Assembly (NCBI GenBank): GCA_913776045.1
Contig: CAJYOI010000036.1
Span: forward strand, 1-45,867
Direction of reading: 5' to 3'
Source of the DNA: an uncultured Sphingomonas sp.
GTDB lineage: Bacteria > Pseudomonadota > Alphaproteobacteria > Sphingomonadales > Sphingomonadaceae
DNA length: 45,867 nucleotides
Shown: one piece after another, positions 5-5,027 of the stretch
How positions within the stretch are numbered: the first letter of the stretch is position 1
How the letters are laid out: each line of letters opens with the position of its first letter
The notes under the pieces: model-generated
The model's input: only the letters and a program-made list of their open reading frames with translations
Database searches by the model: none
Told to the model about the DNA's origin: nothing
Translations under genes and position numbers: made by a program

Positions 5-658
5 TCAGTTGCGGGTATCGCGGCTTAGGTCATCTACCTCGTCCATGATCGCATCGAGTGCGCTCTTTTCGCCATCATCATGTTCGCGACGAGACGGCAG
101 ACGGCCTTCGTTAAGAATGCCTTCCAGCGCTACACGGCCGCGTGCGACGCGACTCTTGATCGTGCCTACGGCGACGCCGCAAATATCGGCCGCCTCTTCG
201 TAAGCGAACCCGCCTGCCCCGACCAGGATCAGCGCTTCGCGCTGCGGCTGCGGCAGGTGGAGCAGCGCACGCTGCATATCGGTCAGCTCGACGTGGCGAT
301 CCTGGCTGGCGGGCGCGGCGAGCAGCCGGTCGGCGACCAGGTCGTCCCACTCACCCTTGAAGCGCGCGCGCCGCATTTGCGACAGATACAGGTTGCGCAG
401 GATGATGAACGTCCAGGCGCGCATATTGGTACCCGCCTGGAACCGCTGGCGCGCGGCCCAAGCCTTCAGCAGCGTCTCCTGCACCAGATCATCGGCCAGG
501 TCGCGGCTACCCGACAACGATCGCCCGAAGGCGCGCAAGTGCGGGATGACCAGCGCGAGCTGCGCCTTGAATTCGGGATCGCTGAGCGCGACGTGCGGCA
601 CGGGTTCGGCCACGACGGCCGAACCGGTCTCTTTGTCGTCATGCGCAGTCTGTATCAT
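5..658 (-). CDS. ecfG: EcfG-type general stress response sigma factor
   Basis: This 217-residue ECF sigma factor directs RNA polymerase to general stress response promoters of the GGAAC-N16-CGTT type. A sigma-2 region spans about residues 35-100 (LADDLVQETLLKAW, then MRAWTFIILRN). A sigma-4 helix-turn-helix lies at about 135-180 (LPQPQREALIL and VGTIKSRVARGR). NepR is known to hold this family inactive until phosphorylated PhyR sequesters NepR; both partners are encoded within 2 kb, which supports the EcfG assignment over other ECF groups. The ATG start follows an intergenic gap of 79 nt after a small membrane-peptide gene on the same strand. No GGAAC/GTT promoter was found directly upstream, so transcription may come from further up or from another sigma factor. 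The stop codon is at the very edge of the window. Confidence 0.93.
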   Translation of the reverse strand: MIQTAHDDKETGSAVVAEPVPHVALSDPEFKAQLALVIPHLRAFGRSLSGSRDLADDLVQETLLKAWAARQRFQAGTNMRAWTFIILRNLYLSQMRRARFKGEWDDLVADRLLAAPASQDRHVELTDMQRALLHLPQPQREALILVGAGGFAYEEAADICGVAVGTIKSRVARGRVALEGILNEGRLPSRREHDDGEKSALDAIMDEVDDLSRDTRN

Positions 659-737: not shown

Positions 738-887
738 TCAGGTCAGGAAATAGATGAGAGCGAAGATCACGATGACCAGCACGAGCGATATGCCCAAAAT
801 GTACCGCGTCATCCCCGGTGTCGCGCCCGCCCGGACGCGATCGGTATCGATGTGCTGACGACCTTCGGAATCGATCTTGTTCGACAT
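738..887 (-). CDS. 49-residue single-pass membrane peptide in the GSR locus
   Basis: This short gene encodes 49 residues. The polar N-terminus begins MSNKIDSEGRQHIDTDR, and residues about 30-48 form one strongly hydrophobic helix (YILGISLVLVIVIFALIYFL) ending in T and a TGA stop. The composition, with a clean transmembrane helix, argues that it is real, whereas the overlapping longer frame at 655-897 is arginine- and histidine-rich and featureless. It sits between phyR and ecfG on their strand, 79 nt before ecfG, so it may be co-transcribed with the sigma factor. No function is recognised. No strong Shine-Dalgarno sequence is visible. Confidence 0.6.
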   Translation of the reverse strand: MSNKIDSEGRQHIDTDRVRAGATPGMTRYILGISLVLVIVIFALIYFLT

Positions 888-901
888 ACGCAACCAAACC
901 C

Positions 902-946: not shown

Positions 947-1750
947 TCAGGCCGCCGGCACCGTCGCCTCATCGAAGAACAACGCCTGGCTGATCGCCGC
1001 CTTCACCGTCGACCGCTGGAACGGCTTGGTGATCAGGAATGTCGGCTCCGGTCGCTCGCCCGTCAACAGACGTTCGGGGAAGGCGGTGATGAAGATGACC
1101 GGCACGTTGAACTCGGCCAGAATGTCCTTCACCGCATCGATGCCCGAACTGTCGTCGGCGAGCTGGATATCAGCCAGCACCAGACCCGGCCGGTCTTCCA
1201 TCGCCAGCGCGACGGCTTCGTCGCGGGTGACGGCGACGCCGGTCACTTCGTGGCCCTGGTCGCGGACGATCGATTCGATATCCATGGCGATGATCGGCTC
1301 GTCCTCGATGATGAGGACGCGGGCGCGGGTCTGCTTGTCGATTTCCGACAGCGCGTCCGACACCAGATCGTCGACCTCTTCCGGGGTGGCGTCGATCAGA
1401 TAGGCGGTGTCCTCCGTCGAGAAACCCTCCATCGCGGTCAGCAGCAGCGCCTGACGCGAAAGCGGCGCGACGCGGGCGAGGCGGCGGCGGGCGATCGCTT
1501 CGTGCCCGCTCGACCCGTCGTCCTCGGGCAAAGCACGGTTATCGGCGTGGGTCGACGACCAGATCGCCTGAAAGGTGCGATACAGGCCCAACCGCGGGTC
1601 GACGTCGTTGGGGAATTCCTCCGGCGCCGCGACGATCGCCTCCAGCGTCGCGCGGACATACTGGTCGCCCTCGGACTGGCTGCCGGTCAGTGCACGGCCA
1701 TAGCGCCGCAGGAAAGGAAGGTGCGGCGAGAGCTGCTGTCCAAGCGACAT
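947..1750 (-). CDS. phyR: Response regulator/anti-anti-sigma factor PhyR
   Basis: PhyR is the phospho-activated partner switch of the alphaproteobacterial general stress response. Its N-terminal sigma-like domain binds NepR when its receiver is phosphorylated, freeing EcfG. The N-terminal part (residues 1-140) has the degenerate sigma-2/sigma-4 fold of the family, starting MSLGQQLSPHLPFLRRY. The C-terminal receiver starts at about residue 145 (VLIIEDEP) and has phospho-acceptor D194 (LADIQL), T222 (FITAFPE) and K242 (ITKPF), so it looks active. An in-frame GTG 27 nt upstream is possible, but the ATG at 1748-1750 gives the usual PhyR N-terminus. An AAGGAG lies 12 nt before it. The gene diverges from nepR, and the 255-nt gap contains the nepR promoter. 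Confidence 0.95.
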   Translation of the reverse strand: MSLGQQLSPHLPFLRRYGRALTGSQSEGDQYVRATLEAIVAAPEEFPNDVDPRLGLYRTFQAIWSSTHADNRALPEDDGSSGHEAIARRRLARVAPLSRQALLLTAMEGFSTEDTAYLIDATPEEVDDLVSDALSEIDKQTRARVLIIEDEPIIAMDIESIVRDQGHEVTGVAVTRDEAVALAMEDRPGLVLADIQLADDSSGIDAVKDILAEFNVPVIFITAFPERLLTGERPEPTFLITKPFQRSTVKAAISQALFFDEATVPAA

Positions 1751-1858
1751 GTTCGATCGAAACTCCTTGTTGGGCACCTAACGTGTGGCGGCGCCCGGTC
1801 CTTTGCAATCGTTCAGAAAGCCGCTTGCCGGCCCCCACCCCGATATTTCGCAAGCACT

Positions 1859-1883
1859 GGAACATTCGAGGCGCTCTTTGGTT
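1859..1883 (+). promoter_or_regulatory. Sigma-EcfG-type promoter for nepR
   Basis: GGAAC at 1859-1863 is followed after 16 nt by GGTT at 1880-1883. This fits the EcfG consensus GGAAC-N16/17-CGTT with one mismatch in the -10 element. It points toward nepR, whose start lies about 120 nt downstream, and implies positive autoregulation of nepR and the phyP-like gene by EcfG. The spacing is identical to the perfect promoter at 3802-3826. Confidence 0.65.
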
Positions 1884-2005
1884 TCATCGCCGTTCCAATC
1901 CGGATATGCGCACATACCGGAAAGGATGCCCGCATTTTGGTGTCGGGCTTATTTTTTGCGGTTTTGCGTATCCGTCCCGCCTGTCGGGACGCTCAGGGGG
2001 ACGAG

Positions 2006-2167
2006 GTGGTTTCCAATACGGACGACGAAAAGACGCCTCGGCGTAATGACGGCAAGACTGGTGGGCAGGAACGCGACGTCGGAGAGGCATTGCGCGCGGT
2101 CTATCATGATGCCGCGTCCGAAACCGTGCCTGACGAGATGCTGGAACTGCTGAAGAAGCTGGGATAG
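2006..2167 (+). CDS. nepR: Anti-sigma factor NepR
   Basis: This 53-residue protein is the anti-sigma factor that holds EcfG until PhyR-P captures it. The signature is its C-terminal half: DVGEALRAVYHDAASE, then VPDEMLELLKKLG, which matches the two NepR helices. The N-terminus is short, charged and probably disordered, as in the family. I chose the GTG at 2006-2008 because an AGGGGG sequence (1995-2000) precedes it with 5-nt spacing. The frame stays open for a long way upstream, so an automatic call could produce an overlong protein and hide NepR. The phyP-like gene begins 10 nt after the stop and is probably co-transcribed. The locus thus holds all three members of the PhyR-NepR-EcfG switch. 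Confidence 0.88.
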   Translation: MVSNTDDEKTPRRNDGKTGGQERDVGEALRAVYHDAASETVPDEMLELLKKLG

Positions 2168-2177
2168 TCCGTCGCGG

Positions 2178-3764
2178 ATGACGGACGCTTCCAACGCGCA
2201 ACCGGCACCGGTTACCAGCGGCGTGCCGAACGGCCGGTTCGCCAGGTTGCCGACCGGCGCCAAACTTTTTCTCATTTTGAGCGTGGCGCTGTTGCCGTTC
2301 GCGCTCATAATCACCTTCGCCGCCTATCAGACCACCCGCATCTCCGACAGCGAGAACCAGGCGCGGTTGCGCGTTGCCGCGACCGAAGGCGCGCGCACGC
2401 TGACGATCGAACTTGTCGGCGACATGACCGCGCTGCGTTCGGCACTCGATGCGATCGAACGCGATCCCGACGATGCCCTGAGTTGCGCACGCGTGAGCGG
2501 CGTGTTCGCCCCCGATCTCGGCGCGGGCGGCAGCTTCGGCATTCATGACGCGGCCGGCAGGTTGCGCTGTGGCCGCGATATGCCGCAGGCCGACGGCGCC
2601 AGCGGCGCGACGGTCGCTACGACGATCGCGCCCGACCGCGGGCTGACGCTGACGATCCGCGGCTCGAACGGCTTGGCGCGCGCCACAGCCTTCTTTCCGA
2701 CCAGCTTCCTGAGAAATGTCAGCCGGCCGAGCGGCTTTGTTCCAGAATATGGCTCGGAACTGCACGATGACCGGACGAAGCTGGAACTGCGTCGCCTCGA
2801 TGGGCCGTTGCTGGCGCGTCGCGACACGCTGACGGTGCCGGTCGGCCTGTCCGACCTCGAACTCGTCATGACGATGGCGAGCACGCCAATCACCTCGCCG
2901 GTGCTGATCGCGATGTTGCTGCCACTGCTGATGTGGGCGGTCGCCGCCAGCGTCGGCTGGTTCGTCGTCGATAGGATGCTGATCCGACCGTTGCGGCGGC
3001 TACGCACCAGCGTGGTGCAATATCGCCCCGGCAGTTCGTTCGACGTCATTTCGATCGGCGCGGTGCCGGCGCACGAGATTCGTGAGCTCGACCAGGCGTT
3101 TCTCGGTCTCGGTCGCACTGTCCAGGCGCACGAAAGCGACCTGGCGGAAGGGTTGGTCCGCCAGACCCGCCTGACGCGCGAGGTCCACCACCGCGTCAAG
3201 AACAATCTGCAGGTCATCGCCAGCCTGATCAACTTCCACGCCCGCGGCTCCGCATCTAAGGAGGCGAGCGCCGCCTATGCGTCGATCCAGCGGCGCGTCG
3301 ATGCCTTGGCGGTCGTCCACCGCCACCATTTCGCGGAGATGGAGATCAACCGCGGCCTCGGCCTGCGGTCGGTGCTGGGCGAGCTGTCTGCCAACCTGCG
3401 CGCCACCGCACCCGAAGGCGGCGGACGGCTGTCGCTCGTGCTCGACATCGATCCGTTCTACGTCAACCAAGACACGGCGGTCGCCGTGGCGTTCCTGACC
3501 ACCGAACTGGTTGAACTGGCGATGACGATTCAACCGGCGTCACAGGTTCGGATTTCGCTGAAGCCGGAGGCTGGATCGGAAGACCGTGCGGTGCTGCGGA
3601 TCAATTCACCCGCCCTGGTCGAAGGCGACACGCTGCGCGACCTGCTCGCCACCCGTTACGGCCGCGTGATCGAAGGCCTGTCGCGACAGTTGCGTACCAA
3701 GCTGCATCACGATCCGCTGGTCGGCGCCTTCGAAGTCGTCATCCTGGTCGTGGGTCGCGACTGA
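2178..3764 (+). CDS. phyP: PhyP-like HisKA_2 sensor protein of the GSR
   Basis: This 528-residue membrane sensor has two transmembrane helices (about 29-50 and 240-264) around a periplasmic domain of about 190 residues. A HAMP-like linker follows, then a HisKA_2 dimerisation domain with the H-box EVHHRVKNNLQVIASL (His 337/338). The C-terminal ATPase region looks degenerate. The N-box position reads TELVELAMTI instead of NELVTNALKH, and no DxGxG or GxGL glycine loops are present. From memory, PhyP of Sphingomonas sits in the same locus and acts as a negative regulator, probably dephosphorylating PhyR; the decayed ATPase fits a phosphatase-only role. The gene follows nepR by 10 nt. The alternative is an active HWE/HisKA_2 kinase, which the missing motifs make unlikely. 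Confidence 0.82.
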   Translation: MTDASNAQPAPVTSGVPNGRFARLPTGAKLFLILSVALLPFALIITFAAYQTTRISDSENQARLRVAATEGARTLTIELVGDMTALRSALDAIERDPDDALSCARVSGVFAPDLGAGGSFGIHDAAGRLRCGRDMPQADGASGATVATTIAPDRGLTLTIRGSNGLARATAFFPTSFLRNVSRPSGFVPEYGSELHDDRTKLELRRLDGPLLARRDTLTVPVGLSDLELVMTMASTPITSPVLIAMLLPLLMWAVAASVGWFVVDRMLIRPLRRLRTSVVQYRPGSSFDVISIGAVPAHEIRELDQAFLGLGRTVQAHESDLAEGLVRQTRLTREVHHRVKNNLQVIASLINFHARGSASKEASAAYASIQRRVDALAVVHRHHFAEMEINRGLGLRSVLGELSANLRATAPEGGGRLSLVLDIDPFYVNQDTAVAVAFLTTELVELAMTIQPASQVRISLKPEAGSEDRAVLRINSPALVEGDTLRDLLATRYGRVIEGLSRQLRTKLHHDPLVGAFEVVILVVGRD

Positions 3765-3801
3765 TCCGATTCACTTTTTTTGATGTTTGCGAAACCTGTG
3801 C

Positions 3802-3826
3802 GGAACCTCGAAGCCGGAGGGCCGTT
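3802..3826 (+). promoter_or_regulatory. Perfect sigma-EcfG promoter for a putative sRNA
   Basis: GGAAC at 3802-3806 and CGTT at 3823-3826 are separated by exactly 16 nt, an exact match to the EcfG consensus. It begins 38 nt after the phyP stop and faces the C-rich hairpin region. Transcription would be expected to start near 3833. Confidence 0.8.
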
Positions 3827-3832
3827 CTGCTA

Positions 3833-3928
3833 AACGGATAGCGACCTTTTGCCCCCCCGCTCTCGCTATCCAAGACATAGGCCCGGAAGCGTCCACCCCT
3901 CCCCCCCCCGGTGACGCTTCCGGGCCTA
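3833..3928 (+). ncRNA. gsrN: Putative GsrN-like stress sRNA with C-rich loops
   Basis: Downstream of the EcfG promoter are two hairpins. The first has a 9-bp stem (GGATAGCGA 3836-3844 with TCGCTATCC 3863-3871) and an 18-nt loop containing seven consecutive C residues. The second has a perfect 16-bp stem (3878-3893 with 3913-3928) and a 19-nt loop that is almost all C. GsrN of Caulobacter is an EcfG/SigT-dependent sRNA that acts through an exposed C-rich loop, and as I recall its homologues often lie beside ecfG-nepR-phyR. The position, promoter and loops agree with that family. There is no U-run after the second stem, so the 3' end is unknown and the RNA may extend into the lipoprotein gene at 4053. 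The open frame here (3787-4068) has no coding character. Confidence 0.62.
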
Positions 3929-4052
3929 AATTCGTCAAGAGCTTTCGACATCGCCGACCGCGTCTCGGCCAGGCACTTCGCCGCTCAGGCGCGGAACGAA
4001 CGCGGATGTCGATCATTGAGCCAGCGCAACCAATCTTCGGGAGTGACCGTCC

Positions 4053-4187
4053 ATGCGTAAGATCCTGACCGCGATGACCCTCGTCGGCGCCCTGGCCGTC
4101 AGCGCCTGCAACACCGTCGAAGGCGTGGGCCGCGACGTGGCGTCGGCCGGCAACACCGTCGCCAAGACCGCGGACAAGTCGAAGTAA
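4053..4187 (+). CDS. Entericidin-like small lipoprotein
   Basis: This 44-residue protein begins MRKILTAMTLVGALAVSACN, a lipoprotein signal with a lipobox (VSAC; lipidated Cys at 19). It continues TVEGVGRDVASAGNTVAKTA, the pattern of the entericidin EcnA/EcnB family of small envelope lipoproteins. A GGGAG-like ribosome site lies 9 nt before the ATG. It is downstream of the putative stress sRNA with no terminator between them, so it may be expressed from the same EcfG promoter with a leader of about 220 nt. In enterobacteria, entericidins are stationary-phase genes. The protein is followed at once by a strong terminator. Confidence 0.82.
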   Translation: MRKILTAMTLVGALAVSACNTVEGVGRDVASAGNTVAKTADKSK

Positions 4188-4212
4188 GGCATCCGCCTCA
4201 ACGGGCACGAAA

Positions 4213-4248
4213 AAGGCCGCGACCCACCCCGGATCGCGGCCCTTTTTT
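4213..4248. terminator. Bidirectional intrinsic terminator
   Basis: GGCCGCGA (4215-4222) pairs with TCGCGGCC (4234-4241). A T-run follows at 4243-4248, and an A-run precedes at 4210-4214. It can end both the plus-strand lipoprotein transcript and the convergent minus-strand tatC transcript. Confidence 0.88.
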
Positions 4249-4265
4249 ATGCCTGTACCGGCAGG

Positions 4266-5027
4266 TCAGGCGTCGATTTCGGCCGCGACCTTGGCGCGCT
4301 TGCGCTCGGTGAACCAGATGCCGATCAGAGCGATCTCGTAGAGCAGTACCAAGGGGATCGCGAGCATTAGCTGCGAGCCCACATCCGGCGGCGTCAACAC
4401 TGCCGCGATACCGAACGCGCCCACGATGGCATAACGCCGCGCCGCGACCAACTGCTTGCGCGTTACGATGCCGGCGCGCTCCAGCAGCATCAGCAGGATC
4501 GGCAGCAGGAACGAGATGCCGAACGCGAACAGGAACTGCATCACGAACGACAGATACGGGCCGACGGTCGGAATGGCCTCTTGCTGCACGCCGCCCAGAT
4601 TGCCCTGGTAGCTCAGCAGGAAATGCACCGCGATCGGTATGGCCATGTAATAGGCGAGCGCCGCCCCCATCAGGAACAGCACCGGCGTCGCGAGCAGGAA
4701 AGGCAGCAACGCCTTCTTCTCGTTCTTATAGAGCCCCGGCGCGACGAACTGCCATAGTTGCATCGCGATGATCGGAAACGCCAGCATCATCGCCGCGAAG
4801 AATGCGACCTTGATCTGGACGAAGAACGCCTCGAACAGCTGCGTGAAGAAGATCTTGTTCTGCCCTGCCTCGACCAGGGGATGGACCAGAAACGCGAAGA
4901 TCGGCCGTGCGAAATAGAAGCACACGGCAAAGCCTAGCACGATCGCGATCACGCAATACAGTAGCCGGCGGCGCAGCTCGATTAGATGGTCGAGCAGCGG
5001 GGCCTGGGTGTCGTCGATATCCTTCAT
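4266..5027 (-). CDS. tatC: Sec-independent translocase subunit TatC
   Basis: TatC is the polytopic receptor of the twin-arginine export system; it binds the RR signal peptide together with TatB. The 253-residue protein has the family N-terminus (PLLDHLIELRRRLLYCVIAI), six hydrophobic segments, the FFVQIKVAFFAAM region and the late LTPPDVGSQLMLAIPLVLLYE signature. Its ATG overlaps the tatB stop as ATGA, so translation is coupled. Likely clients in this window include the DUF1501 protein at 11402-12544. Length is typical. Confidence 0.98.
   Translation of the reverse strand: MKDIDDTQAPLLDHLIELRRRLLYCVIAIVLGFAVCFYFARPIFAFLVHPLVEAGQNKIFFTQLFEAFFVQIKVAFFAAMMLAFPIIAMQLWQFVAPGLYKNEKKALLPFLLATPVLFLMGAALAYYMAIPIAVHFLLSYQGNLGGVQQEAIPTVGPYLSFVMQFLFAFGISFLLPILLMLLERAGIVTRKQLVAARRYAIVGAFGIAAVLTPPDVGSQLMLAIPLVLLYEIALIGIWFTERKRAKVAAEIDA

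Follow-up and report, generated by a model that had tools for sequence, protein, structure and literature searches.

What is understood of post-transcriptional control in the GSR comes so far from a single RNA of a single genus. GsrN of Caulobacter crescentus depends on EcfG for its transcription, is stabilized by Hfq and is cleaved to leave a stable 5' half; pairing of its C-loop with G-tracts has been established (PMC5869019). GsrN-like RNAs of the Rhizobiaceae likewise have an EcfG box, a position near the GSR locus and an exposed 5' loop (PMC5869019); they are likened here by description, and their loop is cytosine-rich in the available text of that paper and G-rich in its Fig. 9C legend. 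For the sphingomonad outgroup Erythrobacter litoralis, the same paper reports, in the part available, no apparent gsrN-like gene (PMC5869019). The literature searched, subscription journals and supplements aside, yielded in its accessible portions no earlier report of the small RNA described below (PMC6599016, PMC7083833, PMC8103513, PMC6970203 and PMC7064620 included), and small RNAs are not mentioned in the accessible portion of PMC6599016.

The window analyzed here (the whole stretch of DNA, 45,867 nucleotides) contains ecfG, phyR, nepR and phyP, and the Pfam domains of the neighboring genes are as expected (EcfG, PhyR, NepR, PhyP kinase, entericidin, TatC). An earlier note on this DNA had proposed a GsrN-like small RNA gene behind phyP. 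Comparison among relatives shows that the promoter box, both stems, both C-loops and the position of this element are conserved; the element very probably specifies an EcfG-controlled small RNA working like GsrN. The features concerned are:

5-658, minus strand: ecfG (sigma-70 regions 2 and 4)
947-1777, minus strand: phyR (Pfam domain)
1859-1883, plus strand: EcfG-like box GGAAC-N16-GGTT ahead of nepR-phyP (from sequence only)
1996-2000, plus strand: G5 tract at the nepR ribosome-binding position, before the GTG at 2006 (read from the sequence)
2006-2167, plus strand: nepR, GTG start, candidate target (PF18557)
2178-3764, plus strand: phyP (phyT), HWE-type kinase/phosphotransferase, upstream of the RNA (Pfam HWE/HisKA_2)
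3802-3826, plus strand: EcfG-type promoter GGAAC-N16-CGTT (sequence match; same offset kept in relatives)
3833-3933, plus strand: predicted small RNA of about 100 nt, both ends putative (conserved block, fold, covariation)
3836-3871, plus strand: hairpin 1, 9-bp stem 3836-3844/3863-3871 (9 of 9 pairs changed on both sides, 99.2% of cells paired)
3845-3862, plus strand: loop 1, CCUUUUGCCCCCCCGCUC, candidate seed (C7 at 3852-3858)
3878-3928, plus strand: hairpin 2, perfect 16-bp stem 3878-3893/3913-3928, probable terminator stem (16 of 16 pairs changed on both sides)
3894-3912, plus strand: loop 2, second candidate seed (C9 at 3901-3909)
3993-4017, plus strand: EcfG-like box GGAAC-N16-CATT ahead of the entericidin gene (sequence match)
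4053-4187, plus strand: entericidin-type small lipoprotein gene (PF08085, 23.7 bits, barely above the cut-off of 23.3)

A 51-aa small protein encoded between ecfG and phyR (738-893, minus strand) recurs in related loci (query HP80).

The exact GGAAC-N16-CGTT box that the earlier note placed after phyP is indeed present, and is the sole strict match in the window when both strands are searched. Chance alone would yield a mean of 0.42 strict boxes in a window of such composition (at least one in 34 of 100 shuffles); the box by itself is not significant and could be due to chance, and it is the comparison among relatives that settles the matter. For this we used 84 loci (set A3), excluding L051 (a likely false match) and the near duplicates L033, L037 and L049. 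A strict EcfG box stands at the set offset in 67 of these 84 loci vs 0 of 16,251 random positions, and a relaxed box starts 32-35 nt 5' of the hairpin in 80 of 84 vs 52 of 16,251 random positions in the same loci. Three of the four loci scored without a box (L024, L053, L057, and L066) are near misses, and adding L051 back would change the count to 80/85. Within the genus, GGAAC-N16-[CTG]GTT occurs 7-8 nt ahead of the hairpins in all 20 fetched loci, the window's own among them; the box also lies 5' of the RNA in 118/118 listed loci that were picked solely by the loop-1 20-mer and extend far enough upstream. These findings suggest that the RNA is transcribed, and that its transcription is under EcfG control. 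The position after phyP, and a stem 2 that resembles a terminator in many loci (T-run of at least 4 in the tail of 43/84), would also fit a mere terminator region of phyP transcription beside a chance promoter box, but the constant offset of the box, the invariant loop 1 and the copies elsewhere in the genome render this extremely improbable.

The two hairpins, with a 9-bp stem, a perfect 16-bp stem and a first C-run of seven, are as the earlier note described them, except that the second C-run, given there as ten, is nine nucleotides long. Folding of 3833-3933 gives -50.9 kcal/mol (z -9.15), which none of 200 shuffles equalled, and the best conserved stretch among relatives corresponds to window positions 3835-3929 (identity up to 97%). 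Across the 84 loci, all 25 pairs show changes on both sides and 95.4% of cells pair, with a covariation score of 0.445 vs 0.172 for shuffled and at most 0.083 for slid controls, in an alignment that leans toward the structure of the covariance model to which the sequences were aligned. Among the 20 genus sequences alone, 8/25 pairs are changed on both sides. The 3' end of the window RNA is uncertain because the window contains no T-run 3' of stem 2. The total length varies between 96 and 106 nt over the 20 genus loci, and both C-run and total lengths shift by single bases, which argues against coding; this agrees with the absence of coding signal noted earlier, and a coding reading of the region was ruled out on these grounds.

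A C-run of at least 5 is kept in both loops in 82/84 loci, and mean column identity over the 84 loci is 0.90 in loop 1, 0.89 in stem 1 and 0.75 in stem 2. The uniformity of loop 1 exceeds the need of a single mRNA target, as might be expected if a protein, or another RNA to be titrated, were the partner of the C-loops instead of mRNA leaders. We know of no C-run binding regulator in this group, and against such a role stands the precedent of GsrN, which is mRNA pairing; we regard it as very unlikely.

No Rfam 15 family matched anywhere in the window at the gathering threshold. The weak matches that fall on the element (snoR9, 18.5 bits vs a threshold of 90; STnc400; HOXB13-AS1_2) were taken as chance. 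C-rich loops also characterize the alphaproteobacterial small RNA suhB/alpha-r14; families of this kind have such loops in common with the window RNA, and none is among the weak Rfam matches in 3700-4300.

A DNA search of 41 genomes gave a match in 24 of the 25 that belong to the genus, counting the window's own; outside the genus it matched only a 27-base piece of the entericidin part. For wider comparison we used two covariance models, R1 (built from the 20 genus loci, window's own among them) and R2 (built from the 84 loci of A3). Among 298 family genomes sampled across 96 genera, R1 matches 102 (36 genera) and R2 matches 119 (41 genera); the latter count is an upper figure at the threshold used because several weak matches look spurious or unproven (L051, L107, L111, L112, L113, and L114). 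A box was present at 11 of 21 inspected matches (19 from the family, two from outside). True copies may in turn escape strict filtering: the one in G064, which is diverged, surfaced only in an unfiltered local search. In class-wide scans, R1 matched 2/385 genomes, both of the own genus, and R2 (E <= 0.05) matched 9/289, comprising two of the own genus and seven weak matches (26.6-38.3 bits) at which no EcfG box was seen; these scans gave no convincing homologues beyond the family. One locus outside the family (L116, genome G461) has two hairpins with C7 and C5 loops, without an EcfG box. A scan of named genomes with the loop-1 20-mer retrieved at least 119 contigs, and the 80 among the matches listed are Sphingomonadales or metagenome-assembled alphaproteobacteria. 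Loss of the stems and C-loops amid conserved neighbors, which the earlier note named as evidence against its reading, is not the pattern found, given the 119/298 genomes matched by R2 and the 25/25 covarying pairs.

Two further observations concern copies of divergent sequence or position. A diverged double C-loop RNA lies at 3568-3670 of L293, before entericidin and tatC, with the box GGAAC-N16-AGTT, in a genome of 2.1 Mb with low G+C (0.47 in the locus). In the genomes of L086 and L110 the double C-loop RNA is present a second time, at another place and again with an EcfG box.

The position inside the GSR locus, beside ecfG-nepR-phyR, holds for the window as the earlier note stated, and in 110/119 loci among the matches listed no tested gene lies closer upstream than phyP. 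The gene order phyP - RNA - entericidin - tatCBA - scpBA recurs across many genera. The nearest tested downstream gene is entericidin in 74/119 and tatC in 34/119 among the matches listed, a count in which the 44-aa protein can be overlooked. In genus g16 (L098-L101, L057) the RNA and its box are kept with 0/11 tested neighbor genes within about 3 kb, and the genome G069 carries phyP-entericidin-tat but lacks the RNA. The frequent presence of entericidin downstream on the same strand, together with a stem 2 that has no T-run in the window, could be explained if the hairpins belonged to the entericidin mRNA as its 5' leader and worked in cis, as a stress-controlled leader or attenuator. However, entericidin has its own EcfG-like box (3993-4017), like gene #1442 of S. 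melonis Fr1, an EcfG-dependent gene for a small secreted protein whose box resembles the one in the window (PMC6599016, available text); the two appear to be the same gene. A cis-acting leader would also not account for the loci in which opposite-strand tatC is the nearest tested downstream gene, for the g16 copies apart from these genes, or for the second boxed copies, and we consider it quite unlikely.

To compare the window RNA with GsrN itself, we searched 191 class genomes for PhyR (32 matched) and scanned 20 phyR regions for a box plus C-run. At L245, the loop GACGCCCCCCCGAC adjoining phyR fits the G-rich targets tabulated in the accessible part of PMC5869019. In the family of L245 (f70), L245-type RNA matches occur in 28/60 genomes, and box plus C-run in 24 of the 29 loci listed. 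Based on loop, locus and box, we infer that f70 is Caulobacteraceae and that the L245-type RNA is GsrN. These probable gsrN loci (L262-L287) place the C-run beneath an inner hairpin, within a one-sided internal loop, and their terminator lacks a C-loop. The window RNA folds with plain terminal loops, a GsrN-type internal-loop architecture not being found in it; its loop 1 C7 does provide an exposed 5' C-run, a GsrN feature. When R2 was run against 45 loci of gsrN and type B (see below), the best score was 17.8 bits (E = 0.072), on the probable gsrN of L264; the class-wide R2 scan, genome G398 included, did not report probable gsrN.

A gsrN loop pattern taken from the target table in the accessible part of PMC5869019 matched 5/289 genomes (one mismatch allowed), none judged to be an sRNA gene; the pattern was one C short and could not find G398. 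GsrN uses a G-tract in the leader of katG; a G-run of at least 5 within 90 nt upstream of katG was found in only 1/30 genus loci, with katG starts taken as the first in-frame ATG, which is wrong in some loci. With 29/30 leaders lacking a G-tract, katG is unsupported as a target of the window RNA.

It is conceivable that the window RNA is a true but strongly diverged gsrN orthologue, with its stems and second loop rebuilt. It has the EcfG box, the C-run in a 5' loop and the place in the GSR locus; by eye, the motif GGCGAC(n)GCCCCCCCG can be recognized in both the probable gsrN loop and loop 1, and the weak R2 match in L264 falls on its gsrN. Against orthology, neither direction tested gave a significant match, the C-run is structurally elsewhere, a third RNA, unlike either, is found in other genera of the family, and the katG leader G-tract is missing; we hold orthology to be unlikely, if still worth entertaining. 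Thus, of the GsrN likeness proposed in the earlier note, the structured non-coding RNA, the EcfG box, the exposed C-loops, the GSR locus and the family-wide occurrence stand, and membership in the GsrN family is unsupported, on the evidence of architecture, significant matches and katG.

The third RNA, here called type B, came from family genomes without an R2 match. Thirty such genomes have tatC in 30/30, entericidin beside tatC in three and phyP in one. PhyR was found in 25/30 of another such set (28 genomes common to both), and in 17/25 a box lies within 1.5 kb of phyR, ahead of a single C-loop hairpin and a strong terminator; G081 (L249) has the same arrangement. The type B box is mostly GGAAC-N16-CATT. 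A model built from 16 type B loci (R3) also matches L332, omitted from set A5, and L339, missed by the pattern. R3 matches 19/58 genomes, divided into 0/23 with the window's RNA type and 19/35 without an R2 match. All 12 R3 loci that were fetched (nine from genomes new to the analysis) have the box and lie about 1 kb or less from phyR, so the type B position is not merely an effect of the search region. The type B loci are L326-L343, L249, and L347-L358. In the R3 structure, both partners have changed in 8/25 pairs, every one of which belongs to the terminator; the stem of the C-loop is nearly invariant, and covariation is therefore uninformative on that stem. Run over the window, R3 left the element unmatched even with hits up to E = 10 admitted.

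Several observations single out nepR as a candidate target of the loops, which is the most speculative part of the explanation we prefer. A G-tract occupies the nepR ribosome-binding position in 45/64 loci vs 20/602 other gene starts, and a G-run of at least 5 precedes nepR in 48/65 loci vs 9.6% of random stretches; any in-frame start was allowed, and these counts are not independent because the loci are related, all sharing the exact loop-1 20-mer. When eleven neighbor genes are ranked by the predicted strength of their duplex with the C-loops, nepR comes first (mean z -1.26, compared with -0.69 for phyR and 0 for random stretches), with z < -1 in 63% vs 14% of random stretches. The G-tract was present before nepR in six of 13 other loci with the RNA, and in 0/1, 1/3 and 1/3 of the few readable nepR leaders without the RNA (small samples). 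A strong Shine-Dalgarno could explain the G-tract as well. In Caulobacter, nepR mRNA was enriched in the GsrN pull-down, and no effect on SigT/NepR was seen (PMC5869019).

The reading we consider probable is that of a GSR small RNA, made by EcfG, whose two C-loop hairpins pair in trans with G-tract leaders, nepR perhaps included. PhyR would release EcfG from NepR, allowing EcfG to transcribe from the box at 3802-3826 an RNA of about 100 nt starting at about position 3833. Its two hairpins would each expose a C-run, hairpin 2 serving in addition as terminator, and the C-loops would pair in trans with G-tracts in mRNA leaders to alter translation or stability. That the loops pair with mRNAs at all is suggested by the precedent of GsrN. 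Pairing with nepR would mask its ribosome-binding site, resulting in less anti-sigma factor and a longer response.

With considerably more hesitation, as a possibility that we would not favor, the tandem C-loop RNA may be the sphingomonads' own, with feedback as its main job. Each of the two loops could accept a G-tract, and since the ribosome-binding site of nepR is one, the RNA would silence the anti-sigma factor of its own sigma factor and lock the stress response on. Sister genera would use an unrelated single-loop RNA beside phyR, which would mean that the GSR circuit recruited C-loop RNAs independently at least two times.

For the small RNA reading that we consider probable, the data predict that many sphingomonads carry, at a constant position, a C-loop RNA that is controlled by EcfG and belongs to one of two types. 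They supply S. melonis Fr1 and comparable laboratory strains with a ready model, and with a testable NepR feedback. They also offer a case of unalignable RNAs with a common promoter, locus and C-loop design. Type B and the window RNA share the EcfG-type box, a C-run loop and the vicinity of phyR; type B has a single C-loop hairpin, followed by a strong T-tract terminator, and there is no significant cross-match between the two. Like GsrN, as described in the accessible text of PMC5869019, the window RNA has an EcfG-type box, a predicted length of about 100 nt, an exposed 5' C-run, a 3' stem and, usually, a location near ecfG-nepR-phyR. Unlike GsrN, which has one C-run in an internal loop, it has two terminal C-loops, the second C-run sitting within the probable terminator stem; the difference between tandem C-loops and the single-loop form, suspected in the earlier note, is real. 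The system is of a kind already known; the sequence comparisons point to a real, conserved, EcfG-boxed sRNA gene of the same kind as GsrN, in which the tandem double C-loop design is a separate variant.
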